DNA of 51,066 nucleotides from a virus: positions 1 to 51,066 of the IMG/VR virus record IMGVR_UViG_3300031578_005720. One strand, written 5' to 3'. This document shows positions 15,440 to 51,066 of the stretch, piece by piece. The translations under genes were made by a program, and so were the position numbers. The notes beneath the pieces were generated by a model. The model saw nothing but the letters and a program-made list of their open reading frames with translations. It had not been told where the DNA came from and did not search any database. How positions within the stretch are numbered: the first letter of the stretch is position 1; every line of letters starts with the position of its first letter.

Positions 15440-15492
15440 ACAGTTCTTTGAGGGTCACCATACCAAAAAGGATGTGCACTGGAGGGCACACA

Positions 15493-27139: not shown

Positions 27140-27150
27140 GAGAGTATACG

Positions 27151-32100: not shown

Positions 32101-32694
32101 GTAGCCTGTGTTAGCGTAGTCCGAGACGTTGACCATCCAGTCCTTGTACCATACGGTTTGGTGAGAGCGCGCAGCATCGGCCTTGTATAGCCACCAATCG
32201 CAGTTGTTAACTATTTGCCAGTGGTAGCCCCTAACCTGAAAGGCCCCAGTGCTTCCAGAGTATTTGCCCCAGTCAGCTGTTTCCCATCCAGCAGGCATGT
32301 AGACAAACAGTTTTAGGTTTGGGTTCTGCTGCTTGAGATACGTGCAAATCCCAGGAGATGCGGTGTCCGTAAATGCCCCGGATTGCAGTTCCACGATATG
32401 ATACATGGTTGCAATAGAGCGTTGGGGTGTCCAATCTCCCCAGCGAAGCCATGTTAGATAGAGCCTGGGAAACTTGTGTGCTGGCCAAGGCCCACCGCCA
32501 GGCGTGCCCGCCCCGGTTAGCATGGCAGCGTCTTCAGGTCGCATCCAGTGCACAACGCCTTCAGAGTAACCCTCTTCCGTTGGCGCCAGGATGGGCGTGG
32601 GAGTATGCGGAGGCGTGCAAGAAAACAACGCACTGCCGACCACTACAGCGGCTACAACAAACAACAGTATGAGCGCGAGCAGTTGTTTACGCAT
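29185..32694 (-). CDS. Exported GHL15-like glycoside hydrolase with two lectin-like domains
   Basis: The 1169-aa product starts with a lipoprotein-type signal ([22 protein letters not shown]26). Residues about 45-540 resemble the GHL15 putative glycosidase barrel: [14 protein letters not shown], then [13 protein letters not shown] with a likely catalytic Asp near 225, and [14 protein letters not shown]. Thr-Pro linkers at about 540-581 and 798-918 flank two LamG/lectin-like domains (about 590-795 and 920-1155) related to each other and to the lectin domain in the next gene. AGGAG precedes the ATG. It probably binds and cuts cell-surface polysaccharide. Such linkers are typical of secreted Chloroflexota proteins. 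Confidence 0.75.
30091..30240 (-). repeat. Thr-Pro linker repeats (ATYTPTPT units)
   Basis: Three AATYTPTPT or EATYTPTPT units with [11 protein letters not shown] spacers form a repetitive linker in the GHL15-like protein. On the plus strand the repeat reads as GGCGTAGGCGTAT-like blocks that create false open frames. Confidence 0.75.
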
Positions 32695-32703
32695 GGTGAA
32701 CTC

Positions 32704-33768
32704 CTAAGGCGTTGGCGTAACCGTCACACAGACGCAATCACAGTAGACATGAGCAGGCTCAGGTGTTGCGGTAGGTACAACAGTTGGTGTGGTCGTAGGC
32801 ACAGGGGCCGGTGTAGCCGTTGGAGTCGGAGTAGGTGCAGGCGATCCGAAAGCCATGTCTTGAAATGCTTGCCCAACCACAGATAGCGTTGACGAATTGC
32901 GCTCCACAAGGAGGTTGCCGGCCAGCTCGTCAACATAGGTTGCATACCAGAAGTGTTGCTCGATATAGGGTTGTCTACCAAGCCAACCCCACGTAGCACG
33001 CAAAAACTCCGCAACACGAGCAGCCTCTGTAGGCGAGTCCCCATAGTCCGAGAGCACGCCCCATTCCGAGATTATCCAAGGCAGCTGTGACATGGTGGGT
33101 GCCCAATTATTCATCCAGGTTTCGTTCAGGTGTTTTGTCCGCAAGACAGCATCCTGAAACTGCGCGACATTGAACCTGTTGACAAAGTCATTGTAGAAGT
33201 GGTAATGCAGCCCATCCATAGGTGGAAGGCTACCATACTTGTCGCTGTACACCTCCAGGAACGCTCCCATCCATTTCCAGTGCGCTTGATAGTTTGACGT
33301 GCCACAACAGTACACCTTACTTGTGGGATCAGTAGTCTTTAGGATATTGTAGATGTCATTGTAGGTGTCAGCCGCAATACTAGGAAGACAGTCAGCCTGA
33401 TCCTGCCGGTCTGGTTCGTTGAAGATCAACCACTTCAGCCCAGGGTACTTTGCAGCAAACCGCTCTATCGATGACAGGCTCACGGTATCCCAGGAGCTGC
33501 CTGAAGTACCACAACCCCACTGATACGCTACGTACTCAATCCCCTCAGGTAGTGCGTCGATCGCCCTGTCCAGGTAGTTCCAGTTATGCACAGAGACAGA
33601 GCCCATTGCATCTATTCCCGGGAGTTGTGCTACAGGAGCGCTAGGCCAGCCCACACCTCCCTTGTGTGCCAAAGGGGCACGTGCGAGCTCAACCTGCGCA
33701 GTTGGGGGCGCACAGTTGCCAGCGAGAGCTATTACTGCTAGGAGGGCAAGTGCTCCAAAGCGCCTCAT
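32704..33768 (-). CDS. Exported clan-A-type glycoside hydrolase (Asl1-like)
   Basis: The 354-aa product has an N-terminal signal (ALALLAVIALAGNC; the site is not a clean lipobox). The barrel has the two acid signatures of GH clan A: IFNEPD (acid/base Glu) and IISEWG (nucleophile Glu), with LHYHFYND between. This fits the Asl1-like glycosyl hydrolase family. The C-terminus has a Thr-Pro linker and a short Cys tail (CDCVC). It probably cleaves a host surface glycan. Its ATG overlaps the stop of the gene before it (ATGA). Confidence 0.75.
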   Translation of the reverse strand: MRRFGALALLAVIALAGNCAPPTAQVELARAPLAHKGGVGWPSAPVAQLPGIDAMGSVSVHNWNYLDRAIDALPEGIEYVAYQWGCGTSGSSWDTVSLSSIERFAAKYPGLKWLIFNEPDRQDQADCLPSIAADTYNDIYNILKTTDPTSKVYCCGTSNYQAHWKWMGAFLEVYSDKYGSLPPMDGLHYHFYNDFVNRFNVAQFQDAVLRTKHLNETWMNNWAPTMSQLPWIISEWGVLSDYGDSPTEAARVAEFLRATWGWLGRQPYIEQHFWYATYVDELAGNLLVERNSSTLSVVGQAFQDMAFGSPAPTPTPTATPAPVPTTTPTVVPTATPEPAHVYCDCVCVTVTPTP

Positions 33769-35229: not shown

Positions 35230-36153
35230 CTACTTGAGGTTCCATTGGGTGCCGTTGTAGATCATCTGAACAGCATCACCTGCTGTGCTGAAGACAATAC
35301 TTGCGCTGCCGTTGATGTTCTTCCCGTTTCCCGCGATAGTCAATGGGTTGCCAGCCGTCTCCAGTATGACCGTGTAAACCCTGCCATCCTCTGGTGCTGC
35401 TGGTAGGGTAACTATGAAAGCTCCCCCAGATGTATCACACAGCACGTTTTCGTCCGTCGCCAACACCGCGTAGTTGGCTATTTTGGCTGTGGTGTTGATG
35501 TTCTCGATTCTTCCGCTGTCTGAGCTTATCTGACCTGCAGCTGTCACATGGGCAAGGATCGCGGTTGTGCTGTCCTGCCACTCTTGTAGGTTAGCCGACT
35601 GTGCCACGATTCCCCGCACAATCGCCTTCACTACAGCGGCACCTGCGGCATTGAAAATGTGTAGACCAGTCCAGGTAGGCACGATAGCCTGGTCGAGTTG
35701 GTGGGCGTGGTCGGAATGTGCAAAGCTATCCGCCGTGCCTATAGCGCTAGCGGCCAGGTCAACACTAGGGGACGCCGGTGCGGCCCAAGCTGGTGTAATG
35801 GTCAAGGTGTTACCGGGACCACCATCTACGAGCGTCAACGCGGCTACAGCAGCCAGGTAGCGCTCGAAGTTCATAGTGGGCTGGGCCGTAAGCATTAGGA
35901 ATGGAAGGTTCGCAACGTCCACAGCGCCCGCCGTAGCGCTAACGACAAGCGTTCCGGCTCCGGGCGTAAGCGCAATACCAGCACCTGCGGTGAGTACGCT
36001 TTCGGCAGTTAGAAGAGTAGATGGGCTAACTACGACGTATGGCTCGTTACGCAGGTCGGCGACGCTCCCACCACCTCCGCCACCGTCGTCCTCGCCCCAG
36101 CCTAGCGTTATCCAGGCGGTGTTTTCTTTGTTCCGTACCTTGAGGAGTGCCAT
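35230..36153 (-). CDS. Tail fibre-like protein
   Basis: The 307-aa product has a short N-terminal part, a Gly-rich linker (DDGGGGGGS), Ala/Thr/Val-rich segments and an SDHAHQ motif, common in phage tail fibres. The C-terminal part has beta-strand repeats (GGAFIVTLPAAPEDG, GNPLTIAGNGKNINGS). It overlaps the hub gene by one base and is followed by the beta-helix gene. It probably forms a trimeric fibre. Confidence 0.65.
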   Translation of the reverse strand: MALLKVRNKENTAWITLGWGEDDGGGGGGSVADLRNEPYVVVSPSTLLTAESVLTAGAGIALTPGAGTLVVSATAGAVDVANLPFLMLTAQPTMNFERYLAAVAALTLVDGGPGNTLTITPAWAAPASPSVDLAASAIGTADSFAHSDHAHQLDQAIVPTWTGLHIFNAAGAAVVKAIVRGIVAQSANLQEWQDSTTAILAHVTAAGQISSDSGRIENINTTAKIANYAVLATDENVLCDTSGGAFIVTLPAAPEDGRVYTVILETAGNPLTIAGNGKNINGSASIVFSTAGDAVQMIYNGTQWNLK

Positions 36154-37712
36154 TACTCGTCAGCTCCAGAAGTGTCCACCCACATCATGCCGCCGTACGT
36201 TATGCTGGGTGCGTCGCCACTCACAACGGCAAACGTACGTTTGCGTGCGTACCTACGCTGTTTCATAAGTTCATGGAGCTCTCGGACGCCTACGTCGGTG
36301 GGCAGTAGGCGCATTGTGTCGGTAAGGTCCAACTGGTAAATTACATCCGTGGCGGTCACTTCAGCGGTTACGTTGACAACAACGAAGTTCCTGTTGAGGT
36401 CATCGAAGGTATACTGCCTCCGCCACATGGTCAGAGCGTCTTCGAACTCAACGTGCCCAACACACTCAAGACGTACTAAGTCGCCCGGGTGGAGTACTAC
36501 GTCTAGACCCCGAGCAGTAACCGATACCTGGAGAGCCGCTTGGTCATTTGCTAGAAGCCTACCCACGGCAGCATCCACAAGTGCCTGACGTGCCTCGTTC
36601 ACCTTCTCTTGGTCATACGGGAAGCTCTTGCTTATCTTGAACTCCGTACCTAGCGCGAACGCCCCCCAACCCCCGTAAACAGTGTTCCCCATATGTCCCT
36701 GGACGGGATACGAGATTCCACCGATCTCGAGCACGCCCTCAGTCCAGAAGCCGTTGTTAGGTCTGTTCAGCACCTCGCTCGTAATAGAGTTTCCCGCCGT
36801 TGCTGCATCGAGCGTACCGTTCGCGGTAACCTCTGTATTGGAAAGCGGTTCAATCGTATCGAACGACGCCTGCCTCAGAAGGCCCCCTGTGCAGAGCGTA
36901 ACGCCCGCGGACACCACAGTGGATGCATTGAGCACCACTGCAAGGCCTCCCGCGAAATGTTGGAAGCTAAACCCTTCGGGTAGTTCCTCATTGCCTACAG
37001 GACGCAAAGGTTCAGAGACACTATCCTCCCTAACGTGCTCCCCGCCCTCGGGATAGACACCACACAGGACCTCAGACGCGTTTATAACGATCTGGGGGGC
37101 CTCTACGTATCCGTAGGTTGTGGGTAACACCTCAAGGTCGCCCTCAGCACATACGAGGGTGGCCACGACGCCCCCAACTGGCTCCGTTAGGATATCGAGA
37201 ACACGAGAGTGCCCATTGTGCCTGAAGTAGTTACCTGACATGCTGCACAGCTCTACCAGAGCACCGAGGAACGTCTGCCCCTCCAGGTTTGCTGTAATAA
37301 AGCTATTCACTGCTGTACTGGTGTCACCCAGAACCCACTCCGTACCACTTGCTAGCAAGATCTGCGCAAGTACGTCTAGCACAGGGCGGAAGGACGCGTA
37401 GTATCCTGGCGGAAGGCAACCCTGTCGAAGCTCTTCAAGCACCCCGTTTCCTCCAGCAACCATGTTGCCAGGGATTATCTGATCGTGGGTGCACGTGAGC
37501 CATCTACCGTAGGGCAGGAGTTCGCCGAATGGCCCCATAATCTCCATGAGGAACATTCGGAAGTCCTCAGGTATAAGGTCCTTCCACGCAGCGTATGGGG
37601 CAGACACAGAGGACGACCCAGCCTCACTTAACCCCTGAGTTGTGGTTGCACTCGGTGGAGCAACTATGCCACCCGCGAAGCCGTCATCACGGTCGTAGAA
37701 CTGGAAGATCAC
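36153..37712 (-). CDS. Tail-tip/hub-like minor tail protein
   Basis: The product is about 519 aa. GTG at 37712 is favoured, with GGGGG before it; an earlier in-frame start at 37784 would overlap the upstream gene by 61 bases. The middle part has hub-like features (LDVLAQILLASGTEWVLGD, GALVELCSMSGNYFRHNG, DVVLHPGDLVRL), as in tail-hub proteins of siphophages. The C-terminus is helical and basic (HELMKQRRYARKR). No lysozyme motif is seen. Its position after the tail-distal genes fits the hub at the tail tip. Confidence 0.62.
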   Translation of the reverse strand: MIFQFYDRDDGFAGGIVAPPSATTTQGLSEAGSSSVSAPYAAWKDLIPEDFRMFLMEIMGPFGELLPYGRWLTCTHDQIIPGNMVAGGNGVLEELRQGCLPPGYYASFRPVLDVLAQILLASGTEWVLGDTSTAVNSFITANLEGQTFLGALVELCSMSGNYFRHNGHSRVLDILTEPVGGVVATLVCAEGDLEVLPTTYGYVEAPQIVINASEVLCGVYPEGGEHVREDSVSEPLRPVGNEELPEGFSFQHFAGGLAVVLNASTVVSAGVTLCTGGLLRQASFDTIEPLSNTEVTANGTLDAATAGNSITSEVLNRPNNGFWTEGVLEIGGISYPVQGHMGNTVYGGWGAFALGTEFKISKSFPYDQEKVNEARQALVDAAVGRLLANDQAALQVSVTARGLDVVLHPGDLVRLECVGHVEFEDALTMWRRQYTFDDLNRNFVVVNVTAEVTATDVIYQLDLTDTMRLLPTDVGVRELHELMKQRRYARKRTFAVVSGDAPSITYGGMMWVDTSGADE

Positions 37713-37723
37713 GTAAGGACCCC

Positions 37724-38866
37724 CTACACGTACTGCGGTACTATGTCGTAACTCACGTGGAACTGATGCCCTGGAAGCCTCCATCCCGTGAAGCTAATGT
37801 GGTTGGCTCCTGGCCACAACTTGCCCACGTGAGAAGTAGTTCGCTCCGCGATCGCAAGTGGTGTGCCAATGGAGGCTATATCTGCGAACTCTGCCGTAGG
37901 TAGCGTATCATAGCAGTGATCATCATGTAGAGGACAGTACCGAACCTCAGCACCAAACCGCGGATCGATAAGAGCATACTGTGGCTCGGCTACCTTCTGA
38001 CGGATCGTAAAGCTACTGGTCCAGCCTGCTGGTGTACAGATCGTGACCTGTAGCCATGTAAAGTTCGTGAACGCCCAGCGATTAAGGGGTGGGGTGTCCC
38101 CCTCCACCATGAGGGTCATGTCTCCAGTCTCATCCTTGTGTGCGGAGCCTATGTGTGCACGCTTCCACCCTTCGGCGCTCCAGTACCCGACGCAGTACGC
38201 CTCTATCCAGCTGGCTGGTAGGTTCCGGTACCATCTGAACGGTGGCTCCGGGAGGCACAGGGGGAGGTTACAGGGCCAGGCGGCTCGGGTAACTCCTAAG
38301 GGAACGCAGGGGTCGCTGGGGTTGACAACAAACGACTCCGGGATGCCAAAAGCCCAGGTGCTGGGTGTCATGCGCATCCAGTGTGTATCCGGCTCGAACG
38401 TCAGAGATACCTCTCCGGGTGTATTCCCCACACGTGCGCCAGCACCCGTTTCGCTCGTCCACTGTATCCCCTGATACCTTGCACGTTTCGCGAACCATGC
38501 TACAGATGTGTCCGTACCGCAGGAGTTGCAGTGACGAATTGGGCGAGAGCATCGACCGCATTGACAGGACACTCCCCGGTAGCCAACAAGCCAGTCCTTG
38601 TATCCTACAAACTTCTTGAGCTCCCTGCCCCACTCCTCCTGTGTACGCTTACCATGACACAAAGCCTTCCCGCGTACTGTCACGGGCGATGAAGACATTG
38701 GTGCACGTGCGCTAGCACGGAGATCTAGACCAAAGTCCTGATACCCGTTGGTAAGCATATCTACTTGAGCCTGCGCTGACTGGTCAGACTGCAAGTCTCC
38801 AAGAGCCCCTAACCAGACAGGCCTGAAGTCCACAGCAGTTTTTGAGCCGAACTGTGCAATGTGCAT
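37724..38866 (-). CDS. Distal tail protein-like with Cys-rich insert
   Basis: The 380-aa product lies two genes after the tape measure gene, the usual place for a distal tail (Dit) or tail-tip protein. A Cys-rich insert near residues 99-118 (CQCGRCSRPIRHCNSCG) looks like a zinc finger. The rest is beta-rich with many tryptophans (WLQVTICTPAGW, ISFTGWRLPGHQFHVS). The Dit assignment rests on position and general pattern only. Confidence 0.5.
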   Translation of the reverse strand: MHIAQFGSKTAVDFRPVWLGALGDLQSDQSAQAQVDMLTNGYQDFGLDLRASARAPMSSSPVTVRGKALCHGKRTQEEWGRELKKFVGYKDWLVGYRGVSCQCGRCSRPIRHCNSCGTDTSVAWFAKRARYQGIQWTSETGAGARVGNTPGEVSLTFEPDTHWMRMTPSTWAFGIPESFVVNPSDPCVPLGVTRAAWPCNLPLCLPEPPFRWYRNLPASWIEAYCVGYWSAEGWKRAHIGSAHKDETGDMTLMVEGDTPPLNRWAFTNFTWLQVTICTPAGWTSSFTIRQKVAEPQYALIDPRFGAEVRYCPLHDDHCYDTLPTAEFADIASIGTPLAIAERTTSHVGKLWPGANHISFTGWRLPGHQFHVSYDIVPQYV

Positions 38867-38875
38867 CAGTACACC

Positions 38876-39442
38876 CTAGTAGCCCGAAGCGAGATAACGG
38901 AAGTATACGTAGTCGCTAGCACCGAACTCGTCGCTCTTGAACCAGACCGTGAAGCCGTTCGCCGTGATCGAGTCGTCCTGTACGATGGGCTCGTAGAACA
39001 TACCCACCTGAATCCCCGTGTGCCCTACATCTCCGACTGAGGTGATCTGCACATGCGCTGTGTAGCAACCTGTGGGGAAGGGTGTGGCAAAGACGACCGC
39101 CACGCTCTGCCAGCCATAACTCTCACCCATAGGCTGTGCAGTTATACCAACACCGTTCCGGAAGACCACGCCCTCCGAGGGGTAGGGTAGCTGACAAATA
39201 GCGCCCTCGGCCCCATATGTAATCCCCACGAAGTTGATCATGTTACAGTCGAGGGGATCAGCGACTAGGTCATCCTTCATTACCGTGATGTCACACTCGG
39301 GTAACTCGTATGACTCGATACAGGCCTTCAGCTGATCGAGCGCGCTATTTATCTCGGTGCACAGGGCTGTCCAAGCCGCCTGGAGATCGGCAGCACAAGT
39401 AATCTCCGGACAGTTAACTATAATAGTCCCGCAGTCCGTCAT
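38876..39442 (-). CDS. Tail protein with gp53-like C-terminal fold
   Basis: The 188-aa product has a helical N-terminus (ADLQAAWTALCTEINSALDQL), then a beta-rich C-terminal half with GWQSVAVVFATPFPTG and the end ANGFTVWF...YVYFRYLASGY. This ending matches the gp53-like/H-lectin-like fold of tail fibre ends. GGAGGTAG precedes the ATG. It could be a small tail-tip or adhesion protein. Confidence 0.6.
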   Translation of the reverse strand: MTDCGTIIVNCPEITCAADLQAAWTALCTEINSALDQLKACIESYELPECDITVMKDDLVADPLDCNMINFVGITYGAEGAICQLPYPSEGVVFRNGVGITAQPMGESYGWQSVAVVFATPFPTGCYTAHVQITSVGDVGHTGIQVGMFYEPIVQDDSITANGFTVWFKSDEFGASDYVYFRYLASGY

Positions 39443-39453
39443 CTTTCTACCTC

Positions 39454-42400
39454 CTAAGAAAGCCCAGCGCGCTGAGCAGCACGTACAATCTGTGTGCCGA
39501 GTCTACTACCTATTCCGGCCACCGAAGCCCCAATCTCTCTAGCCATACGCGCGCTCACTGGGGCATTTACATGAACTGGTATGCTCAACATCTGTATCAC
39601 GACACCACCCCCACCAGAACCTCCCCCGGGCATCGATACCTGTCCGCGCCCAAGAGCCTGGTTAAGGAGCTCATTTGTACGTGCTCTATCCGATAGGGGT
39701 AGTATAAGTTCGTTGGGGTGTAGCTGTGCGAGGCCAGACCGCGCCCCGGTATAGATGCCTTGCGCGAAGCCCGGCACGTTTTGCCAATCCGTACTGGGCC
39801 CCTGTACCCAGCGGTCCTCGCCAGATTCCGCCCTGTACCAAGTTATACCTTCAGTATCCGTGTGTACGTTTCCGCTCCACCCCGGGTAGTTACGTACTTT
39901 TCCTGGTGGTGTTTCCTCCTCCCCGCCTGGTGGCTTGTTGAGACGCTTCGCAGCGTCCTCGAATGCCTTAATGAGATTGCCCGTCGCCTCATCCAACGTG
40001 ATGAACTTGTCTGCGGAGCTCTCGAGTGGCGGAATGAGTTTCTTTCGCGCCAGGTACTCGTTGTGCCAGATGTCTGCGAGGGTCTGCGTTTCCTCTCCGA
40101 CGCCCTGCTCTGCGAGGCGTGCTCTGGCTGTTTCAGCCTCGGGTCCTGTAGGAGCCATGATTGGAGCACCAGGAGCGTGAAACTGCTCTAGTGGGTACCA
40201 CTCCTTGAACCAGCGAGCCTTCCACCAATCTTCCGAGGGAGCCTCGCCCCCATGCTCCTTTGCGTATTGTTCACCTGCCAGCTTGTCCATCATCCATGCG
40301 GTGAGGGGCTCCTCGTGACGTGCGTAGGCAGACAGCGGGCTAGTACCGTGTTCTATCTCGTATGCCAATGCTGCATTACCAGCGGCCGAGGATAGTAACA
40401 TTGCCTCTGCGGCCTTCTTCAGGTCGCTAGTGCCCTCCCCCATACGTGTGGCGGCCTTTTCCAGGTCCTTGGCAATCTTCTCCCAGCGTGTATCTATCTC
40501 CTCACGTCGTGCCATTGCGGTGAGTGATTCTGGGTCTTTTCCGAACTCGAACTGCCACTGACGGAGCTCTGCCATGTATCCTTCATAAAAGGCCTCAACG
40601 TTCCCCATACCTGTGTAGGGTGCAATTCGGACCGCTGTACCTTTGGCCTCCCCCTGCAGGGCCTTCTCGACATCCATAGCGGCGCCTATCATCTTGCCCA
40701 TGAGGCTGTCAACGCCCCTACCCATACGGTAGAGCATATCGTCGAAGGCGTCCTCAATAACACTCATTGAGTGCCTGGCAGTTTCTGTGGTCAGGTCCCC
40801 GAGCTCGTCTATCTGGTCACGCATCTCAAGCCCCAGTTGCAGGGCCCGGATATAGGGGAGGCCCATGTCCATGGCTTCAACGATGAAATCGCTTACTGTG
40901 TCGTTGATATCTTCCTGGCGATCTCTAACCTGCTCCAGGAGATCTATCTCGACATCGAGGCCCATGTTAAACTGCTCAAGACGGATCATACCCTCGGGCT
41001 CAAAGATCTTGGCACCTAACTCATCATAGATGGCCCTAAGCTCATCGCCCTTAGTCTTGAGCATCTCCATTATGGTCTCTGTGCTTACACCCTGCTGCAC
41101 AAGGCCGACGATGCGTTCCTCAAGCGCTTCATCAGCATCCGTGTATGCCTCTTTGACCTCGTCGGAAAGTCTCTTCTCGTTGTCACGTGTGATCTTGAGC
41201 TGCTTCTGGTACTCCTGCAGGGCAACAGCGGCATCCGGAGACATTCCGAAGTACTCACTCTGAGGCTCCTCGCCATATACAACACTCCTAAGGTGTTTCG
41301 TTGCCGCTAGTAGCTCCTCCTCCGAAAGCGCCCCTGCACTAACTCTCCTGCGTGGGGTTACACTGCGCATACGCTCCTGTGCGCTCCTAAGTGTAGCCTC
41401 GTCTATTTCCCCTTCCTTGTACATCCTCTTGATTTCGTCCCACAAGTTCTTCTGTTCCAACATCTCTTGTAGGGCCCAACGATTTCGGGCAAGTATTTCC
41501 GGGTCTGGAGCAACGACTGACAAGGAGGGCATGAAAAAGTACGCCATAGCATCGGATATCCACTTTCCCACACCTGTCCACGCGCTCTTCGTATCCTCCG
41601 CGAGAGTACCTTGTGACCTCGCAAGGTCAAGCGTTCGCTGCTCCATTTGGGGAAGGAGCTCATTGAGGATAACAACGATCTTCTCTTCTTCAGAAAGCTG
41701 TTCGACCGTACGGTACGTTTCCTCAGCAAGTTGCTCCACAGCGTCCGTAAGACCCGTAAAGCCTTGTTCTGCTTCCAGGGACTCCGTGTCCGCATCCCTA
41801 ATAGATGCGACCCACGACTTCAGTACAGCCGCTGTGGTTTCACCCACAGCACGTGCATGGTAGTATGCGGTCTCTGACAGCTGCGGAATTGCCTCCGCAA
41901 GCTCCTCGTACCCTGAAAGGACCTGCCTATTCGCAAGAGTAATAGCATCATACTCTACCCCAGCGAAGTGTGTTGCCTCCTGAACACCCTGCATGAACCT
42001 TCTTGTAGCAACCGAGGACGCATCGCCCCACGCTTGGTACGCACTTGTGGCTGCACGTAACTTCTCTGTATCCGCAGCCTGATCCATAGCGCGCTTCAGG
42101 GCCTTTGCGACGGTCTCCGCGACACGTTGGACAACCAACATGCCCATTGCAACTTGCCACCATGCGCCCCCAGACTCTCTAGCCCAACGGAAGAGCAGGC
42201 CGCCGCGCATACCCCCGTAACGACTAATTGCCTGCTGCCATGCAGGCCAAAAGTCAAGCTGTTTCTGCTGCTGCTTGGTAACGACCTGTACCTGCCACCC
42301 GTACTGGCGCATCGCCTTAGCAACAAGCTCATACTGTGCGACCCCAGCAAAAGTCTCCGAGTTCCTAGCCTTCGTCGACTGGACCAGGCGTACCTGGTCC

Positions 42401-42666
42401 TTGTTTAGCTGCTGAATCTCCCAGCCCTCGTCCTTAAGTGCCATTCTGGACTTGAGAAGGAGGTCGTACTTCAGCTTGAAGTCGGGATGCGCTGCGCGAG
42501 CCTTCCGTGCTCGATCCCACTCGGCTCTAGTAAGCTTCTCTGTACCCGTGGCAGCCGCAACTGTAGCCTGGTCGAATGCCTGGAGGGAACGTTTAGACTG
42601 TTCCCAGCCCTCTACTATGAACTGGTATACGAATCGCCAGATTTGGGCGTCTTTAACGTCTGCCAT
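39454..42666 (-). CDS. Tail tape measure protein
   Basis: The 1070-aa product is mostly alpha-helical with long coiled-coil stretches (EEKIVVILNELLPQMEQRTLDLARS) and a hydrophobic part (WWQVAMGMLVVQRVAETVAKAL). The C-terminus has SGLAQLHPNELILPLSDRA and a Gly-rich hinge, a signature of tape measure proteins. It sets tail length and is ejected into the host. By the usual 1.5 Å per residue rule the tail would be about 160 nm. It starts inside the end of the chaperone frame (14 bases overlap). Confidence 0.9.
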   Translation of the reverse strand: MADVKDAQIWRFVYQFIVEGWEQSKRSLQAFDQATVAAATGTEKLTRAEWDRARKARAAHPDFKLKYDLLLKSRMALKDEGWEIQQLNKDQVRLVQSTKARNSETFAGVAQYELVAKAMRQYGWQVQVVTKQQQKQLDFWPAWQQAISRYGGMRGGLLFRWARESGGAWWQVAMGMLVVQRVAETVAKALKRAMDQAADTEKLRAATSAYQAWGDASSVATRRFMQGVQEATHFAGVEYDAITLANRQVLSGYEELAEAIPQLSETAYYHARAVGETTAAVLKSWVASIRDADTESLEAEQGFTGLTDAVEQLAEETYRTVEQLSEEEKIVVILNELLPQMEQRTLDLARSQGTLAEDTKSAWTGVGKWISDAMAYFFMPSLSVVAPDPEILARNRWALQEMLEQKNLWDEIKRMYKEGEIDEATLRSAQERMRSVTPRRRVSAGALSEEELLAATKHLRSVVYGEEPQSEYFGMSPDAAVALQEYQKQLKITRDNEKRLSDEVKEAYTDADEALEERIVGLVQQGVSTETIMEMLKTKGDELRAIYDELGAKIFEPEGMIRLEQFNMGLDVEIDLLEQVRDRQEDINDTVSDFIVEAMDMGLPYIRALQLGLEMRDQIDELGDLTTETARHSMSVIEDAFDDMLYRMGRGVDSLMGKMIGAAMDVEKALQGEAKGTAVRIAPYTGMGNVEAFYEGYMAELRQWQFEFGKDPESLTAMARREEIDTRWEKIAKDLEKAATRMGEGTSDLKKAAEAMLLSSAAGNAALAYEIEHGTSPLSAYARHEEPLTAWMMDKLAGEQYAKEHGGEAPSEDWWKARWFKEWYPLEQFHAPGAPIMAPTGPEAETARARLAEQGVGEETQTLADIWHNEYLARKKLIPPLESSADKFITLDEATGNLIKAFEDAAKRLNKPPGGEEETPPGKVRNYPGWSGNVHTDTEGITWYRAESGEDRWVQGPSTDWQNVPGFAQGIYTGARSGLAQLHPNELILPLSDRARTNELLNQALGRGQVSMPGGGSGGGGVVIQMLSIPVHVNAPVSARMAREIGASVAGIGSRLGTQIVRAAQRAGLS

Positions 42667-42961
42667 CGTCCTCTTCCTCGATACGTACGAAGCTTAAAGC
42701 GCTCCCGAGATTGTCCTTCTCTTTATCAGTCATGTAGCTAATTGCCTCCATGTCCGCCCGGTCGCGTGCAGCAGCAAGATAAAAGCAACGCTCAGCTAAT
42801 GGCATCTCCCACCTGAACGTTCCTGGTATTTGAAATCTCGCTAGCGCTTGGAGTTCCTCCATCTCGATGTTCGACGTGAACTCCCCCTCCGGAAGCCTTA
42901 GACTCGTTAGCGCCGTCCTGCGCCAGCGCGTCGCGAAATTTGCGTCTGACAGCCTCCACAA
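42653..42961 (-). CDS. Tail assembly chaperone, downstream frame (T part)
   Basis: This frame overlaps the 3' end of the chaperone gene and continues 139 bases beyond its stop. Only the part after about 42,883 looks like real protein (GEFTSNIEMEELQALARFQIPG, then a helical tail with EDD). It has no good ribosome binding site of its own. It is best read as the T part of a frameshift product: 201 residues from the upstream frame plus 76 from this one, 277 in all. Overlap just before the tape measure gene is the classical position of G/GT in siphophages. Confidence 0.65.
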   Translation of the reverse strand: MWRLSDANFATRWRRTALTSLRLPEGEFTSNIEMEELQALARFQIPGTFRWEMPLAERCFYLAAARDRADMEAISYMTDKEKDNLGSALSFVRIEEEDDGRR

Positions 42962-43487
42962 CTTCGTCTGTGGGCATGGATAGTTGGCGCACGGCCTCTG
43001 TAAACGCTACCTGGTCCGCGGGTTCGGAGAGACCTAGAAGTGTTGGGTATACTTCTTCAGCATACATCTCCGAGCGTTCCGGACCCTCGGCAGGTACAGG
43101 GAAATCGCCCCTTGTGTATTTTACCGCCCAATCGTCGTCCTCAGGCACAATCAAAGCATCCCAAATACACCGGAATAACAAGGCATTCATGAACTGCATC
43201 TGCCACGTGTTGTGTGCCTCCTGGTACACCTTACTTTCAGGCTCGTCGAACGTTTGGGCTATTTTGTGTCCCGGTACAGCAACAGTTACCTTCGGAATCT
43301 GTGGCTCCTGCGCCGAGAAGTGTTGTATGAGCCTCGACATAATACGTGGGTTTACAGAACGGATTGCTGGTGTAGCTCCTGAGGGTAACAGTGCCTGAAA
43401 CACACCCTCTGTCGGATCGTACTGAAAGAGAATCCGCTCAGCACCCTCCACGTTAGGAATATCTTGGCGGGATACTTTTTTCTCCAC
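42792..43487 (-). CDS. Tail assembly chaperone, upstream frame (G part)
   Basis: The 231-aa product lies between the tail tube and tape measure genes, where siphophages encode the chaperone that coats the tape measure protein. It is helical and acidic (ALLFRCIWDALIVPEDDDW, AFTEAVRQLSMPTDEVVEAVRRKF). A GTG start follows AAGGGAG. The last 30 residues after the G-rich shift site are low-complexity, as in the short form of other G proteins. Confidence 0.7.
   Translation of the reverse strand: MEKKVSRQDIPNVEGAERILFQYDPTEGVFQALLPSGATPAIRSVNPRIMSRLIQHFSAQEPQIPKVTVAVPGHKIAQTFDEPESKVYQEAHNTWQMQFMNALLFRCIWDALIVPEDDDWAVKYTRGDFPVPAEGPERSEMYAEEVYPTLLGLSEPADQVAFTEAVRQLSMPTDEVVEAVRRKFRDALAQDGANESKASGGGVHVEHRDGGTPSASEISNTRNVQVGDAIS
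42880..42891 (-). other. Candidate +1 or -2 ribosomal frameshift site
   Basis: In mRNA sense the site reads TCCGGAGGGGGAG with zero-frame codons GGA GGG GGA. The Gly tRNA on GGG could slip forward one base to the overlapping GGG, giving the +1 frame (GAG TTC ACG), or back two bases from GGA to GGG, with the same result. Five Gs in a row lie at 42883-42887. The downstream frame then stays open for 76 residues. Confidence 0.55.
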
Positions 43488-43530: not shown

Positions 43531-44952
43531 CTACGCGATCATTCTTTCGAACAGGACTAGCTGCGCGACGAAGCCCTCTTCGCCAGCTACCAGCAAGCGA
43601 TCGTAGCACGCCACGATCTGCGTCAGCTCCTCTGCTACGATGCCTGCTACGGCGAGTGCCCACCAGGTGTGTCCTCCGTCCAGCGTGAGCTCCATGTCGT
43701 TCGTCTCACCTGAGGCAGCCAGCCGATAGCCGATGTAGCAGTTCAGGAAGAGGAAGTTGGTCCAGTTATCGGTATCGACAACCACCCAGGTTGTTCCTTC
43801 GTCATTCGTGTACGATGCACCATCGCTACCCATCACCCAGATGCGACAGTCCACACGCTGCACTGCGCTTTGCCCAGCTAGGCCGCTTGCTGTGATCGTG
43901 GACCACGCTAGGCCTCCGACCTGGCTGATGTACGTCGCTGTGGCCGTGACAGCTACACCCACACCGTCGTTGGACATGTGGATGTCCACGAACGCTCCAG
44001 TCTCGATCTGCGTCCAGGTTACACCGTTATCCGTCGAGTACCAGATACCATTGCCGACAGCAAAGATAGTTCCCAGGTACTCAGCGAACGCCACAGTCAT
44101 GTATGGACAGGCCACTAGGGTTGTCCAGGTCGTACCGCCATCATGACTGTAGTGCATGCAGCCGTCCTCAGTTGCGACGATGACGACATCACGATCACAG
44201 TAGAGCGCCGTGACATCCAGGAGGGTGTAGGTTATATCAGACAGGTCCAACTGTCCAGCGCCTACGCCCTGCTTGTTCGTCCAGGTTACTCCACCGTCAA
44301 CCGACAGGTACAGGAAGCCGTTCTCGCCACCTAGCCAGATCGTCTCGCAACCGGCATCGTATGGCTGTACACAGGTAGTTGCGCAAGCCCCGCACAGGGG
44401 ACCACCGCAGTAAGCAGCCGCCAGGATGTCGTCCGTACCACCGGCCCAGGACTCACTCTCCCCGATCTGCACGACGTCGTGTCTCTCCCAGAGGATCCAG
44501 TCGTCCACATGTAGAGAAGCGCGCTGCCCTGTGATAGCAGAGTCGTCATCCAGGCCCATCGTGACGTTCTCGGTAAACTCGTCCGTCTCGATGGACGCAT
44601 CGGGCAGGTACATCAGTCGATCGAACTGTGCGTCCCACTTCGTTACTTCAGCCTGCGAAGCACACTTCTTCCATCCTACGACCATGGTGAAGGGACAAAC
44701 ACGATGCAACCACGACCATAGGATCTCTGAAGGAGCTTCCACTGTTGGCTTGATCGGCTCGGGTGCAGCCCGAGTTCGGCCAACAACCTCTCGGATGTCC
44801 TCCCCCGTGCGACAGTAGTGCGAGGTGATCGCGCCACGCCCACGTGTGAGGCCGCTAACACGTAAGCATCCCTGCCACTGTGCGCGACTCCCACACGTAT
44901 CCATGAGAAAAACGGAGGCCATCCCCGACTTGACGAAATTCTTGTTACTCAT
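43531..44952 (-). CDS. Major tail tube protein with C-terminal BNR beta-propeller
   Basis: The 473-aa product lies just before the chaperone genes, the usual place of the tail tube gene. Residues 1-180 are the likely tube domain. Residues 200-473 have at least five Asp-box repeats of the SxDxGxTW type: SVDGGVTW near 217, SHDGGTTW near 269, STDNGVTW near 306, TNDEGTTW near 382 and TLDGGHTW near 423. This is a BNR/sortilin-like beta-propeller. A Cys cluster lies at the junction (CGGPLCGACATTC). The propeller would decorate the outer face of the tail. TTGGAGGT precedes the ATG. Confidence 0.68.
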   Translation of the reverse strand: MSNKNFVKSGMASVFLMDTCGSRAQWQGCLRVSGLTRGRGAITSHYCRTGEDIREVVGRTRAAPEPIKPTVEAPSEILWSWLHRVCPFTMVVGWKKCASQAEVTKWDAQFDRLMYLPDASIETDEFTENVTMGLDDDSAITGQRASLHVDDWILWERHDVVQIGESESWAGGTDDILAAAYCGGPLCGACATTCVQPYDAGCETIWLGGENGFLYLSVDGGVTWTNKQGVGAGQLDLSDITYTLLDVTALYCDRDVVIVATEDGCMHYSHDGGTTWTTLVACPYMTVAFAEYLGTIFAVGNGIWYSTDNGVTWTQIETGAFVDIHMSNDGVGVAVTATATYISQVGGLAWSTITASGLAGQSAVQRVDCRIWVMGSDGASYTNDEGTTWVVVDTDNWTNFLFLNCYIGYRLAASGETNDMELTLDGGHTWWALAVAGIVAEELTQIVACYDRLLVAGEEGFVAQLVLFERMIA

Positions 44953-45015: not shown

Positions 45016-45624
45016 CTACCCGTAACGTGAGGGGTAGTACGATCTCAAACGCGACTTCTTCTTCTGCATCATGAAGACCGCGCCTAACCCCTTGGTAATC
45101 TGCTCGCGCGGGCTTCCTGGGCCGCCTCGATTAAACTTCATTGCAATCGTCCCCGTGAAGTCGCGTGCCTCAATACCTTTGTGTATGAACGACTTAACGA
45201 AGAAGGGATCTTCGATCTCGCCGCCGCCCTTACCTCCACTTACAAGGCTTCCGGGACTTGTTCGTGTTACTGCGTCACCCCCCGTTCCCTTCCCAGGACG
45301 GATCGGCATTGAGGGCGGCCCGAATCCACGCCTACCCTTCACCCAGACTTTGCCCGCGCTCTTCGTTCCCTGATCCACCCATTGGAAGATCTGCCAGTTC
45401 TCATCGTTCTTTGCAGGACCCACAGTCGTAGTCAGGTGCATACCGCGGCGCGCGGGACCCCAAACGACAATCGCTGGCTTGTGGTCCCAGTTGCGGACTA
45501 CCTTCTCAAGGTCCTTCTTCGCTTGCTCCGCGAGAGCACGCGAAACAGCACGCATTTGCTTGTCCAATGCGTTGATGTCTATGTGTGCACCAAGAATAGA
45601 GACTCGCACTATGCCAGGGCTCAC
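45016..45624 (-). CDS. HK97 gp10-like connector / tail completion protein
   Basis: The 202-aa product is basic with a helical N-terminus (DKQMRAVSRALAEQAKKDLEK), a Gly-rich middle and IHKGIEARDFTGTIAM, which resembles the ARDF ending of HK97 gp10-like proteins that join head and tail. It starts at GTG in a GTGA overlap. It lies between the adaptor-like gene and the tail tube gene, as expected. Confidence 0.6.
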   Translation of the reverse strand: MSPGIVRVSILGAHIDINALDKQMRAVSRALAEQAKKDLEKVVRNWDHKPAIVVWGPARRGMHLTTTVGPAKNDENWQIFQWVDQGTKSAGKVWVKGRRGFGPPSMPIRPGKGTGGDAVTRTSPGSLVSGGKGGGEIEDPFFVKSFIHKGIEARDFTGTIAMKFNRGGPGSPREQITKGLGAVFMMQKKKSRLRSYYPSRYG

Positions 45625-46877
45625 CGTCCTGCTGCCTCCCCCATGTATCGTCCGACACGCTTCCAGACGTACTCCTCACCCACGCGCGTTCCTAGGGGAT
45701 TCATCAGGGTCAAGGATGTCGAGTGGTACGCACGCGTCTTGGAACTCATTGACTTGTCATCGCGCCACTTGTCTACCAAAGTCCGAACATTCTCGCATGA
45801 GCACATAGGACTCTCAATGCGGGAAGCCGCAAGTATCGCAATCATTCTAGCCCAGAAGTCGCTAAGGGGTTCACACCCTACAAGGCCACGCGGGGGCACA
45901 AAGCCCGCCTTGTAGTACGCCCAGAAGGCCATTGGCTCCATTGACTGTACCCAACTTGCTGGGGCATACGTCTCCTCGATCGCAACCCAAGTAGCCGGAA
46001 TAAGAGTAACGGTAGCTGCTGCGGAGTTCTTCACGCGTATACACCCAGCCTGACTAGCCCAGGCACAAGCCTGGTCAAGACAGACCGCGTCATCACCCCA
46101 CAGGAACGTAACCTGGTGACTCCGGTCGGCATACTCGCGATAGAACACAATCTCATCCACATAGTTTTCCGCCACGTCGGCATCGATGACACCAGCATCG
46201 TGCCCCTCCTGTAGCTGAGGTTGAAGGAGGTTCCACTTATGTACACGCACAGTGAGGGTTGTGCCGCTGACAGACGCATAGATGTCACGTACTTCCCACG
46301 TAGGATCCGCCCCTGTACTCGACGGGTCTGTACGACAGTTCACAGCGTCGACAGCTTCGAACTCCTTGAAGAACGCATGTACCTCACAAGCCTCAAGGCC
46401 AGCCTCGACAGTTACAGTGAACACTGCCCATTCAGCAAAACCGTCCCCGTCTGCGTCTTGCGCAACGAAGCCCTCAGTACCTAGAAGCTCTGTTGCGCGA
46501 ATCCCTCCATATTGGACGTGTCCATGCTCGAGCACAACGGACTTCCAGCGGCCACGTATGCTTATTCCCGTACCCGTAAGCTCCGGACGGTAAGGGCGTG
46601 GGTACGGCTGCGCCTCTCCTGTGATCCACACCGGAGCTGGCCAGAACCCCAGCTCGCGCGCAAGGTCTTCTTCAGCCTCCGCGATAAGCTCCGCGATCTG
46701 CTCTCTGCTTACCTTCCCCTGTGCGTCCTGCCACTGATACTGGTACCAGATGTCACTACACTCAGACGTTGCCCTTAGCAGTGTACTCTGAGCAGAGCAG
46801 AAGTGAAGTGGGTTGAGCCCTAATATCTTCGCGAACCTCTCAAGGCTTAGCAACGTTTCAGGAATTGCACGCGCCAT
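45621..46877 (-). CDS. Head-tail adaptor-like structural protein
   Basis: The 418-aa product starts with a helical part (KVSREQIAELIAEAEEDLARELGFW) as in head-tail adaptor proteins, then a beta-rich domain in the middle (TGISIRGRWKSVVLEHG, TLTVRVHKWNLL), and a helical C-terminus with SDFWARMIAILAASRI, CSCENV and DKWRDDKS. The assignment rests on the N-terminal pattern and position before the gp10-like gene. The middle domain is larger than in classical adaptors. Confidence 0.55.
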   Translation of the reverse strand: MARAIPETLLSLERFAKILGLNPLHFCSAQSTLLRATSECSDIWYQYQWQDAQGKVSREQIAELIAEAEEDLARELGFWPAPVWITGEAQPYPRPYRPELTGTGISIRGRWKSVVLEHGHVQYGGIRATELLGTEGFVAQDADGDGFAEWAVFTVTVEAGLEACEVHAFFKEFEAVDAVNCRTDPSSTGADPTWEVRDIYASVSGTTLTVRVHKWNLLQPQLQEGHDAGVIDADVAENYVDEIVFYREYADRSHQVTFLWGDDAVCLDQACAWASQAGCIRVKNSAAATVTLIPATWVAIEETYAPASWVQSMEPMAFWAYYKAGFVPPRGLVGCEPLSDFWARMIAILAASRIESPMCSCENVRTLVDKWRDDKSMSSKTRAYHSTSLTLMNPLGTRVGEEYVWKRVGRYMGEAAGR

Positions 46878-46879
46878 CG

Positions 46880-49567
46880 CTATCCTCCAGGGCCAGAGAC
46901 GACGTGAAGGAACACTTTCCTACTGAAGCGCGACACATCATCCGGATGAACCCGCTTCCTCTTGTGGTGGGGATTGTCCCCGAAGAGATACCGGCGACCC
47001 CCAGCTCTACCACGAAACACCTGGTCCACCTTCACAGGGCCAGTGTACTCCATCCAGACCCAGCTATCATCCGCGACGTGCTCGTCCACGACAGGCTCTG
47101 GCGTCCGCGCAGCTCCTGCGGTCCTCGCAATAGCACGCGCGGGGCGTCTCTTACTACAGCCCCCACAACCCCCCATAACATCCTCCTCACGGTGGCGCGC
47201 CCTGATGTCTAGAGCGCCTACCTTATCTTTTGTGCCCTCAATGCGGCGCAGGCCCATGTATGTGCGATACGTGAACAAAGCTTCGGCCAGATGTGTCCCA
47301 CAGAAGCCTGCCTTTGCAAGCCTGATATGGAGATCCCAGTCCTCATGTGGCACTTGGACCGTTTCATCAAAGCCGCCTACAGTATTAAGTATCTTCCTCG
47401 GATACAATGCAGTAACAGCTGAGACGCCCTTTCGCCACAAGCGTTTGGCATCCCACTGATGCATTGTACGTATCTCACGTGTTCCGTCCGCGAGTCCTTC
47501 GTAGAGATCAGTGTAGACCCAGTAGTCCGGAGCCTCCCTCCAAACTGTAAGGGTTCTCTCTATGAACCTGGGCTCAAGATAGTCGTCCGCATCAAGGAAA
47601 ACGACGGTCGGGGCACTTGTGGCCCGTAAGCCAAGATTCCTTGCGGTTGCTGGCCCGACTGCGCCCTCAGTAGTGACCAGCCGTACGTAGGGCCAGGCTG
47701 TAAGATCAAGTTCCACTCCTGAATCGTTCACGACGCATAGTTCCCAGTTGCGAAAGGTCTGCGCCTCGACTGAGTCCAGAGCATCAATCATGGGCTTAAT
47801 GTGTTCGGGACCGACAGGTATGATAACGCATACCTCGGGCGTGTCGTAGTTCCTTACATCCCAAGAGCCCCCCGGGGGCACCCCAAGCTGTGAGGCGAGG
47901 GGGTGCTTTCCATCGGCAACATGTGGGTGTCCGCTAAAGTACGTGTCCCTGTTCCAGTCATCCCTATGCACACGCGTTACCTGCTCCTCGTGAAAGCGGT
48001 AGTGGAACAGTCCCTTCTTCGAGACCATCTTGGCCCCACCACCACTTGACAGAATACGCACCCAGAAATCTGCGTCCTCCTGGCCTGCTCCGCGTGGAGC
48101 GTATCTCTGCCGGTAGCCTCCAACACGTTCCCACCAGATACGCCTGTACAGACAGCTCGTAGGTATCTGATTCCCTACAGTGCCCTTATTTGGGTCGTAC
48201 GGGAGTGGCCACGTATGCTCCTCACTGCGGAGCTTGCCCCTCGCATCCATGACCTTCAGGCCTGTATAGACAATAGCTAACCTCTGGTCTCCCTGAAGGC
48301 CTTCTACCATTGTCTTAAGGTACGACGGGTCACAAGCGTCATCCGCGTCTATACACCAGATGTACTCACCCGTACCCGCCCGAATACCAGTGTTCCGCGC
48401 ATGCGCCACGCCGCGATTCTCCGCGTGTCGTATGAACCGCGCACGGGTCTCTCCCTGAATGGCCTCGGTAATCACATCCGGACTGTTATCTGTGGAGGCG
48501 TCATCGACCACAACGAGCTCCCAGTCCTCGAAGGTCTGTTCTTGAATGCTCTTTATAGTCTCGGCTACATACTTCGCCTTGTTGTGGCAGGGTACAACAA
48601 CGGTGACTCTCGGGCTCTTCGGTGTGAGCCCGAAAAGTACGTCCTTGTAGATGTTAGCAATCTGAAGCACAACCTTCGACCAGGTGAAGTGTCCCTGTAC
48701 ACGTGCTAGTCCTAAGGCGCCGAGTTCCTCCTTCCGTGCGAGTGCCTCCTTCAGCACGCGAGCGAGGCCGTCGTAGTCCCCCGGGAGCACAAAGAGTCCG
48801 CAATCGCCAACAACTTGGGGCGTCGCTCCGTGTCTAAAGCCTACAACCGGTGCCCTGGACGCCATTGCCTCAAGAGCACCAACGCCAAAGGTCTCCTTCG
48901 TAGTACCGAGGTAGATATCCGCAGCCTTTTGCAGACCCCACGCGTCCCAACGCGATAGCAACCCAGTCACCTTGATATTCGAAGGCGCACTACGCGTATC
49001 CATTCCTCGAGGTAGGAACGTCGTCACGAAGTCTAGGTCTGGGAGACGCCTCGCTAGCTCTACAACAACTGTCGGGTCACACACGCCCCAGTTACGTGTC
49101 TTGTTCCACAGAACCTTCGGACGTGTATCGTTGAAAGTTACGGGTGGAACCTCCTGCCACACCTCCCAGTCAAATCCATGCCCGACAACCTCAGGGGACA
49201 TATGCATGTCTCTTCGCAGCATGTCGGCCACCCAATCAGAGACGCATACGACCCTTCCTGCCCGTCGAATGTTGTCAATAATTATAGCGTTCGTTGCGTA
49301 GTCCTGCGACGAGCTACCTGGTTCGGCTGTGGGCATAAGCCCATGCAGGTGAAAAACATCCAGGCGCTTCGTCTCCGTGCCCAGATGTCCAACGACCAGA
49401 TCAGCATCCTCCTCCTTATTAACCTCTAGCCACCCAAAGACAGGAAGGAATCTGGAGTACTGACGCAATACCTCTACGATGCCACCAAACGGACGGGAGA
49501 ACTCCCCCCTGGCAGGATTCGGCCAGCGATAGAATGTGTGCATGCCACCAAGCTTCTCAAGGGACAT
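46880..49567 (-). CDS. Three-domain glycosyltransferase (GT4 plus two GT2)
   Basis: The 895-aa product has three sugar-transfer domains. Residues 1-310 are GT-B type GT4, with KETFGVGALE (E225 and E233, the Ex7E motif). Residues 320-545 are GT2: TVVVPCHN, VVVDDASTDNS, DADD with D407 and D409, and E497-D498. Residues 578-790 are a second GT2: VCVIIPVG, LDADDYL near 658, and E742-D743. Residues 800-895 form a small basic domain with CGGCSKR, then VWMEYTGP and RRYLFGDNP, as in some phage structural-region proteins. It probably adds a short glycan to a virion or host-surface target. Two sugar-nucleotide genes lie upstream. Confidence 0.85.
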   Translation of the reverse strand: MSLEKLGGMHTFYRWPNPARGEFSRPFGGIVEVLRQYSRFLPVFGWLEVNKEEDADLVVGHLGTETKRLDVFHLHGLMPTAEPGSSSQDYATNAIIIDNIRRAGRVVCVSDWVADMLRRDMHMSPEVVGHGFDWEVWQEVPPVTFNDTRPKVLWNKTRNWGVCDPTVVVELARRLPDLDFVTTFLPRGMDTRSAPSNIKVTGLLSRWDAWGLQKAADIYLGTTKETFGVGALEAMASRAPVVGFRHGATPQVVGDCGLFVLPGDYDGLARVLKEALARKEELGALGLARVQGHFTWSKVVLQIANIYKDVLFGLTPKSPRVTVVVPCHNKAKYVAETIKSIQEQTFEDWELVVVDDASTDNSPDVITEAIQGETRARFIRHAENRGVAHARNTGIRAGTGEYIWCIDADDACDPSYLKTMVEGLQGDQRLAIVYTGLKVMDARGKLRSEEHTWPLPYDPNKGTVGNQIPTSCLYRRIWWERVGGYRQRYAPRGAGQEDADFWVRILSSGGGAKMVSKKGLFHYRFHEEQVTRVHRDDWNRDTYFSGHPHVADGKHPLASQLGVPPGGSWDVRNYDTPEVCVIIPVGPEHIKPMIDALDSVEAQTFRNWELCVVNDSGVELDLTAWPYVRLVTTEGAVGPATARNLGLRATSAPTVVFLDADDYLEPRFIERTLTVWREAPDYWVYTDLYEGLADGTREIRTMHQWDAKRLWRKGVSAVTALYPRKILNTVGGFDETVQVPHEDWDLHIRLAKAGFCGTHLAEALFTYRTYMGLRRIEGTKDKVGALDIRARHREEDVMGGCGGCSKRRPARAIARTAGAARTPEPVVDEHVADDSWVWMEYTGPVKVDQVFRGRAGGRRYLFGDNPHHKRKRVHPDDVSRFSRKVFLHVVSGPGG

Positions 49568-49569
49568 GT

Positions 49570-50352
49570 CTAGTCCTCACCGCGATAGGCCTGACTCTCG
49601 GCCTGCATGTACTCGAAGAACTCGCTGTGCGAATACGTCGCAAAGGCCTCCAGATCTTTAGGTAGGCACTTGCCGTCGACACCACGTTTTCCCTTCCAGG
49701 GTACAGTTAGATGGTTGCGCCCAACCCACTTCCTTGCGTACATGGCATCACGTACCACACCGTAGTCGACACCAACGCTTTCAGCGACGTCGTATAGCGC
49801 ATTCGCGAAGAGCACCTTCGTCGCGTAGAACGTGTTGATCGCGTACTTGATAAACTCCGCTGTGCGGTTATCAGTGAAGATAACGCGCTTAGCATCTATA
49901 TCGCGATAGAAGCGACACCACACGTCCTGGAGCACCCAGTCCATAGGCGCACCCAGAACTACTAGATCTGGGTGTAGGGCGTCCTGGTCAGCGGTTGATT
50001 CCGTAAGGAACTCGGGGTTGGACACGATAAGAGTCCCCAAGAACTCCTCCATTAGGTCCTCCGCGGTTCCTGGAGGTACCGTCGATCGAATAACGTATAC
50101 ATGGCCGGGACCGAAGTCCTTAATGTATTGCCGGAGCGCGCTTGTGTCGCACTTGCCCCTAACCGTCGGCGTGGGCAGGCACAGGAAGATGTAACGTGCC
50201 AAGGCGATGGCCGCTCCAGTAGCTCCACCCACACTAGCGTTGCCAAGATCCTCGAGGCCCTTATAATCGTAGATGGCCCCGATGCCTAACGCTCTACACG
50301 TAGCCTTACCAACGACACCTAACCCGCCAATGACGATAGCATCCTCATGCAT
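49570..50352 (-). CDS. Short UDP-glucose/GDP-mannose dehydrogenase-like protein
   Basis: The 260-aa product has a Rossmann start (IVIGGLGVVGKAT), YIFLCLPTPT, RSTVPPGT and SNPEFLTES, a lysine-bearing segment (EFIKYAINTFYATKV) and the catalytic Cys in GVDGKCLPKD. These are the signatures of UDP-sugar 6-dehydrogenases, which oxidise sugar C6 to uronic acids. The C-terminal sugar-binding domain is missing, giving a length much below the usual 400 or more. ATG at 50352 is favoured: it forms a TAATG overlap with AGGAAGG upstream; a TTG at 50361 is less likely. Confidence 0.82.
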   Translation of the reverse strand: MHEDAIVIGGLGVVGKATCRALGIGAIYDYKGLEDLGNASVGGATGAAIALARYIFLCLPTPTVRGKCDTSALRQYIKDFGPGHVYVIRSTVPPGTAEDLMEEFLGTLIVSNPEFLTESTADQDALHPDLVVLGAPMDWVLQDVWCRFYRDIDAKRVIFTDNRTAEFIKYAINTFYATKVLFANALYDVAESVGVDYGVVRDAMYARKWVGRNHLTVPWKGKRGVDGKCLPKDLEAFATYSHSEFFEYMQAESQAYRGED

Positions 50353-51066
50353 TACAGCCAACCTTCCTGGGCAAGTAGCCCTTGCAGTTCTTCCTGTGAC
50401 ATCAACGCGTCGTTCGAGGAGTACGGACCAGCAATACCCTCGAACGTACCGTAGAACCCCTGTATAGCCCTGAGGGGTATCTGCGGTAGGATAACATATC
50501 CATCCATTACCTCGTTAGTCCGATACGCCTCGTTCCCTGACACAAGCTGCTCGTGGACCTTCTCTCCTGGCCGCGTGCCTATAACCTTAAGCTCGATGTC
50601 CTTGTCCCCTATCATAACCGTGGCTAGGTCATGCATGGTAGACGAGGGAATCTCGCTAACAAATACTTCGCCTCCCACTCCAAGGATCGCAGCGTTGAGG
50701 GCCAGGGCTACGGCGCGATCCAGAGTGAACCAGAACCGCGTCATGTTAGGGTCGGTAATCGTCACCGGACCGCCCTTCCTAATCTGATTAGCGAAGAAGG
50801 GTATTACCGAGCCGCTGGAGCCAACTACGTTTCCGTAGCGTACTGAAAGGCATCTCGTCGGAAAGCCTCCAAGGTCCTGATTCGCGTTGATAAGCAAACG
50901 CTCCATCAAGGCCTTCGTCATGCCGTAGACGTTAACAGGTAGCACGGCTTTGTCCGTACTCAGACCTACCAGAACACTCACGCAGGCCTCCTTTGCAGCC
51001 CGTACGAGGTTTGCAGTACCAATAACATTCGTGAGCACAGCCTCAAGAACGTTGTACTCACATCGC
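50352..51066 (-). CDS. PseB/CapD-like nucleotide-sugar dehydratase, 5' partial
   Basis: The open frame runs off the right edge; an internal GTG at 51038 is not the true start, since upstream codons give EYNVLEAVLTNVIGTAN, a PseB/CapD-family motif. Further signs are STDKAVLPVNVYGMTKALMERL (active-site YxxxK), RYGNVVGSSGSVIPFF and TRFWFTLDRAVAL. The family makes UDP-4-keto sugars or epimers for glycans. It supplies the glycosyltransferase downstream. The N-terminal NAD site lies outside the window. Confidence 0.88.
   Translation of the reverse strand, partial: RCEYNVLEAVLTNVIGTANLVRAAKEACVSVLVGLSTDKAVLPVNVYGMTKALMERLLINANQDLGGFPTRCLSVRYGNVVGSSGSVIPFFANQIRKGGPVTITDPNMTRFWFTLDRAVALALNAAILGVGGEVFVSEIPSSTMHDLATVMIGDKDIELKVIGTRPGEKVHEQLVSGNEAYRTNEVMDGYVILPQIPLRAIQGFYGTFEGIAGPYSSNDALMSQEELQGLLAQEGWL

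Follow-up and report, generated by a model that had tools for sequence, protein, structure and literature searches.

A probable tail tube protein with a predicted seven-bladed Asp-box propeller in an uncultured siphovirus-like phage

Organization of the tail module

The window, an entire IMG/VR record of 51,066 bases, has its structural half on the minus strand, cut at the window end. Genes for the capsid and for packaging were not recognized in this half and, given the cut, probably lie past the window end. The gene of interest, a 473-codon ORF, has an ATG start codon with a Shine-Dalgarno-like sequence, TTGGAGGTAAC, upstream. The features of the module, in the direction of transcription, are:

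45621..46877, minus strand: probable head-tail adaptor, 418 aa (profile match 5.9e-89; same place in ~27 loci; role assigned from position)
45016..45624, minus strand: small protein, 202 aa, probably for tail completion or a terminator (profile match 8.6e-27; same place in ~40 loci; role assigned from position)
43531..44952, minus strand: 473-aa protein, predicted tail tube domain followed by a predicted Asp-box propeller of seven blades (Asp-boxes, structure models, position, relatives)
44476..44952, minus strand: predicted tail-tube domain of this protein, aa 1-159 (AF2 model, pLDDT 83; structural search)
43534..44490, minus strand: Cys-rich link and predicted beta-propeller of this protein, ~aa 155-473 (Asp-boxes at aa 217, 269, 306, 382 and 423; a degenerate box at ~aa 343)
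42792..43487, minus strand: probable tail assembly chaperone, 231 aa, directly downstream of the tube gene (profile match 1.5e-41; ~43 loci; role assigned from position)
42653..42961, minus strand: probable frameshift extension ORF, in the +1/-2 frame, overlapping the end of the chaperone gene
39454..42666, minus strand: tape measure protein, 1070 aa (in relatives a large homologous gene occupies this place)
36153..39442, minus strand: three tail-tip or fibre candidates, 188, 380 and 543 aa (position; the first two with homologues in relative L004)

The adaptor, completion-like and chaperone genes of the window were recognized by profiles built from relatives. The genes for adaptor, small completion-like protein, tube plus propeller, chaperone and tape measure are homologous across ~40 loci and collinear in them, with the tube gene directly before the chaperone and the tape measure, which bears out the tail tube position proposed in an earlier note made from the sequence of this DNA. 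A ~125-residue protein that often precedes the tube plus propeller gene in relatives is absent from the window. Families recognized in individual relatives include a capsid protein (L077), Dit (L105 and L006) and tape measures, those of L105 and L077 matching PHROG tape measures and that of L020 matching PhageMin_Tail. As in the window, the ORF overlapping the end of the chaperone gene lies in the +1/-2 frame in all 12 relatives that have one. Tail chaperones typically use a programmed frameshift, and this frame relation agrees with one, which is probable here.

Just upstream of the tail module, positions 46880-51038 encode a large glycosyltransferase of several domains (895 aa), together with a UDP-glucose dehydrogenase and a fragment resembling an epimerase. 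Several relatives also have glycosyltransferase homologues near the tail module, so that glycans of the virion or of the host surface may be modified by the phage. Elsewhere in the window, a family A DNA polymerase (17339-19642) has a uracil-DNA glycosylase domain fused N-terminally. Five genes, by sequence reading only, resemble QueC, QueD, QueE, GTP cyclohydrolase FolE and a QueT/YhhQ-like transporter (8712-9443, 25867-26265, 26525-27139, 27130-27756 and 15436-16179), a queuosine/preQ0-like set that may serve 7-deazaguanine modification of the phage DNA.

Predicted folds of the two domains

For the N-terminal domain, the first 184 residues were modelled separately by AF2 from a 47-sequence alignment. 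The best Foldseek match of the predicted domain is a contractile injection system tube (E 1.7e-06, probability 1.00), with distal tail and baseplate proteins also among the matches, and the best 50 rows of a VIA-align search are all tail or injection-system tubes, with Z-scores of 9.0 to 11.8, the highest over 130 residues. Model residues 4-159 align with residues 7-157 of the lambda gpV chain (7t4f; Z 10.0), and the Ig-like domain of gpV follows where this matched part stops. Further VIA-align matches are to the tubes of SPP1 (6yeg; Z 9.6), R4C (8gtb; 9.4) and YSD1 (6xgr; 9.1). In the model, residues 1-159 thus have a tail-tube fold, as the earlier note had supposed for the N-terminal region. 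Its division of the protein into residues 1-190 and 200-473 was nearly right, the tube ending at residue 159, a Cys-rich stretch coming next, and the propeller beginning at ~155-200. The 473-residue protein matches no known tube sequence family in Pfam, PHROGs or NCBIfam, and no PHROGs tube family was found for any of 47 relatives; tube proteins diverge past sequence recognition.

The tube model is slightly closer to contractile tubes than to lambda gpV (Z 11.8 versus 10.0), and a contractile tail was considered on the basis of these best fold matches. This was abandoned given the lack of a sheath gene and the relatives with a Dit-type protein; the tail sheath family PF04984 was absent from 22 records (the window and 21 relatives, all possibly incomplete) and was matched in control genomes.

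The remainder of the protein contains five exact copies of the Asp-box, [ST]xDxGx[ST]W, at the positions listed above. Shuffling the protein 20,000 times gave a mean of 0.003 boxes and a maximum of one, with no shuffled sequence having two. A sixth, degenerate box (SQVGGLAW, ~aa 343) aligns with regular boxes of relatives, and the expectation of at least five repeats is therefore upheld. Pfam BNR scores above its cutoff (3.7e-07; 29.6 bits versus 27). The full-length model is of moderate confidence (pLDDT 76, with the minimum in blade 1 and the link). Its residues ~155 to 470 form a propeller of seven blades that aligns with seven-bladed folds, one of them a designed protein, with Z ~25 over 265-294 residues. 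The boxes are repeated within this propeller fold, and the modelled domain can so be classed as an Asp-box (BNR) beta-propeller. By sequence, the nearest solved structures are Ycf48 propellers, all weak matches, and the PSII_BNR/Ycf48 family scores under its cutoff (aa 206-461; 21.2 versus 27 bits), as does, by far, NF010237 (21.4 versus 326 bits).

Residues strongly conserved in the propeller are mostly at box, Gly and Trp positions, and neither a ligand nor a conserved binding site was recognized. Mean pairwise identity is 0.36 for the propeller, or 0.31 without the box columns, versus 0.29 for the tube, and so by alignment the variability of the propeller does not exceed that of the tube. 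Domains for host recognition often diversify. Cysteines at aa 29, 47, 86, 97, 187 and 194 are near-invariant or common, present in 77-98% of 44 relatives. They are spread over the tube domain and the tube-propeller junction, and could possibly form disulfides or a metal site.

Relatives in uncultured phages

A protein-level scan of viral contigs with the 473-residue protein returned nothing, a tape-measure search likewise found nothing, and INPHARED phages searched with the window protein, two relatives and the N-terminal domain gave only unrelated proteins with weak E-values. Because the direct searches failed, relatives were first found in IMG/VR viral contigs by the Asp-box pattern and then confirmed against the full protein. 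A second round used a 13-sequence alignment, and two further scans were keyed to the N-terminal domain alone, with patterns blind to the propeller that consequently could not favour its presence. The scans identified 60 distinct tube-domain sequences, a set that distant tubes with other outer domains may have escaped, as every scan was seeded with a short motif (Asp-box, QPDGPNT or CGR). In 57 of these the tube is fused to a propeller, three being cut by contig ends; in two the propeller is a separate, adjacent gene with its own start, and the last (L128) stops at a contig end ahead of any propeller region. None of the 60, those from the tube-keyed scans included, showed a C-terminal domain of another type. 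Complete fused relatives have 469-527 residues and, by their names, the contigs come from >40 different metagenomes. The exceptional arrangements are:

L020, 5194-6741, and L087, 5054-6567: separate neighbouring genes for tube and propeller
L005, 4521-7449; L073, 5992-8931; and L100, 5938-9003: two adjacent fused tube plus propeller genes

Since L020 and L087 encode tube and propeller separately, the junction is a true domain boundary. The paired genes, found also in L086, a near-duplicate of L073, suggest tails of mixed composition or a specialized second tube protein. Among predicted structures, the full-length model of the 473-residue protein has an end-to-end match to a viral protein in BFVD (A0A1P8DJ39, 497 aa; TM 0.72/0.69, 16% identity), which to our knowledge has not been studied.

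Genome contigs scanned with the Asp-box pattern contained BNR proteins that matched mainly over the propeller, and for this reason no host was assigned from them. Three late genes of the window (27881-33768) have lipoprotein-like signal sequences, some with Thr-Pro repeats, and one has a glycosyl hydrolase catalytic core (PF11790). Thr-Pro repeats of this style are common in Chloroflexota, a hint of a host in that phylum.

Identity of the tube and role of the propeller

We estimate a probability of roughly four in five that the 473-residue protein serves a siphovirus-like phage as its major tail (tube) protein, with an outer coat of propellers that most likely aids adhesion. What the analysis shows directly is how the domains are arranged, that a tube fold is predicted, where the gene lies and that these features are conserved, whereas the hexamer, the copy number, the outward orientation and adhesion are inferred. 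In the proposed structure, residues 1-159 would stack in hexameric rings to form the DNA conduit, and the chain would exit the tube domain where that of lambda gpV enters its Ig-like domain and then fold as an external propeller. As the fusion is in frame and needs no frameshift, a propeller is expected on every subunit, and each ring of six would display six propellers facing outward. We consider it highly probable that the protein forms the tube and that each of its copies bears a propeller. Tape measures correspond to ~1.5 Å of tail per residue and, with rings every ~40 Å, the 1070-residue protein would specify ~40 rings and ~240 propellers per tail. Helical rises of tail tubes are 38-43 Å (PMC9022992).

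The tube fold occurs in minor tail proteins too, and the 473-residue protein could instead be a low-copy tail protein of the neck or tip, the true tube being a different gene. Distal tail and baseplate proteins have this fold and appear among the fold matches, and at the three distinct loci with two adjacent copies one could be specialized. We nevertheless consider this improbable. Directly after the gene come the chaperone and tape measure, which gives it the usual position of a major tail protein; between it and the glycosyltransferase gene of the window there are only the 418-aa and 202-aa genes, neither of which matches a tube family, and no other tube candidate was found in the structural module. 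For a low-copy role, each of the ~50 loci would need to have a tube gene that escaped notice.

Taking the protein as the major tube protein, the propellers would most likely make weak, multivalent contacts with the host surface or extracellular matrix that would help adsorption ahead of tail-tip engagement. Such an accessory adhesion role, argued by analogy, may well be correct and is favoured because the propeller occupies the site of the Ig-like domains of other tubes and of a host-binding module, TpeX. Adsorption may be helped by the C-terminal domains that tube proteins carry on the outside (PMC9022992), and the carbohydrate-binding extension of a 936-phage tube protein binds host cells (PMC6669499). 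The dense array of glycan-binding sites envisaged in the earlier note is a different matter. The tube fold, position and in-frame fusion argue for a propeller on every subunit, as that note proposed, and not for glycan sites on it: Asp-boxes are structural turns in propeller blades, with no glycan binding of their own, all sialidase-type families score under their cutoffs, and the propeller varies no more than the tube. An identity not below that of the tube also speaks against strong host-specific selection on the propeller. The coat might alternatively be mainly structural, packed neighbours stiffening or shielding the tube with no external ligand, as could be argued from a propeller that is almost invariant in presence and length among relatives and evolves about as slowly as the tube, and from the near-invariant cysteines, which suggest a braced protein. 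This we regard as possible though unlikely, since the propeller is encoded apart from the tube in L020 and L087 and studied tube proteins form tubes without their outer domains (PMC9022992). An enzymatic propeller, a glycosidase or sialidase clearing capsule or matrix, is more improbable than any of these. A weak match to NF045728, a BNR family named as a glycosylhydrolase (55 bits), would fit, but this score is far from the curated cutoff of 175, no sialidase-type or other enzyme family is above its own (BNR_2, 15.4 versus 31.4 bits), the shared signal is that of the Asp-box repeat, and the strongly conserved residues are mostly at the box, Gly and Trp positions noted above. A wider reading, to which we give somewhat less than even odds, is of a broad, so far uncultured siphovirus lineage in which every copy of the tube protein bears a propeller, making the tail a continuous multivalent adhesive surface, and in which some members have split or duplicated genes instead, with tails of mixed composition.

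The known outer domains of tube proteins are almost all Ig-like folds, and the fixation in one lineage of a large domain of unrelated fold at this very point suggests selection on the position itself. The natural split and duplicated versions are ready comparisons for the role of outer domains, and the family lets annotators spot tail tube genes in many uncultured phages in which sequence searches fail.

The protein resembles lambda gpV, T5 pb6, HK97 gp12 and YSD1/Chi in its N-terminal tube fold, in an extra domain that departs from the same point, and in a gene located just ahead of the chaperone and tape measure. It differs in that the propeller, at ~300 residues, is ~3x the size of their Ig-like domains and of unrelated fold. 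The earlier view that a propeller would be unusual on a tail tube agrees with a review in which the only outer tube domains named are the Ig-like families Big_1, Big_2, I-set and FN3 (PMC9022992); we found no earlier propeller on a tail tube, or BNR major tail protein, in the open-access literature, and one may have been reported elsewhere. TpeX of the 936-group lactococcal phages is likewise a large outer module on a tube protein, giving a total of 470-530 aa, but it is a BppA-like carbohydrate-binding module added by frameshifting to only part of the subunits (PMC6669499), whereas the propeller here is in frame. Ycf48/HCF136 share the Asp-box blades and are the best sequence relatives of the propeller, with scores under curated cutoffs, but are free photosystem assembly factors rather than parts of a virion. 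Propellers do occur within the tail structures of T7/SU10 (nozzle) and K1F (endosialidase), in those cases as nozzles or tail spikes and not as a repeating tube subunit (PMC10607447). Outer domains on tail tubes are as such already known; a propeller in this role appears, from the open-access literature, to be new.
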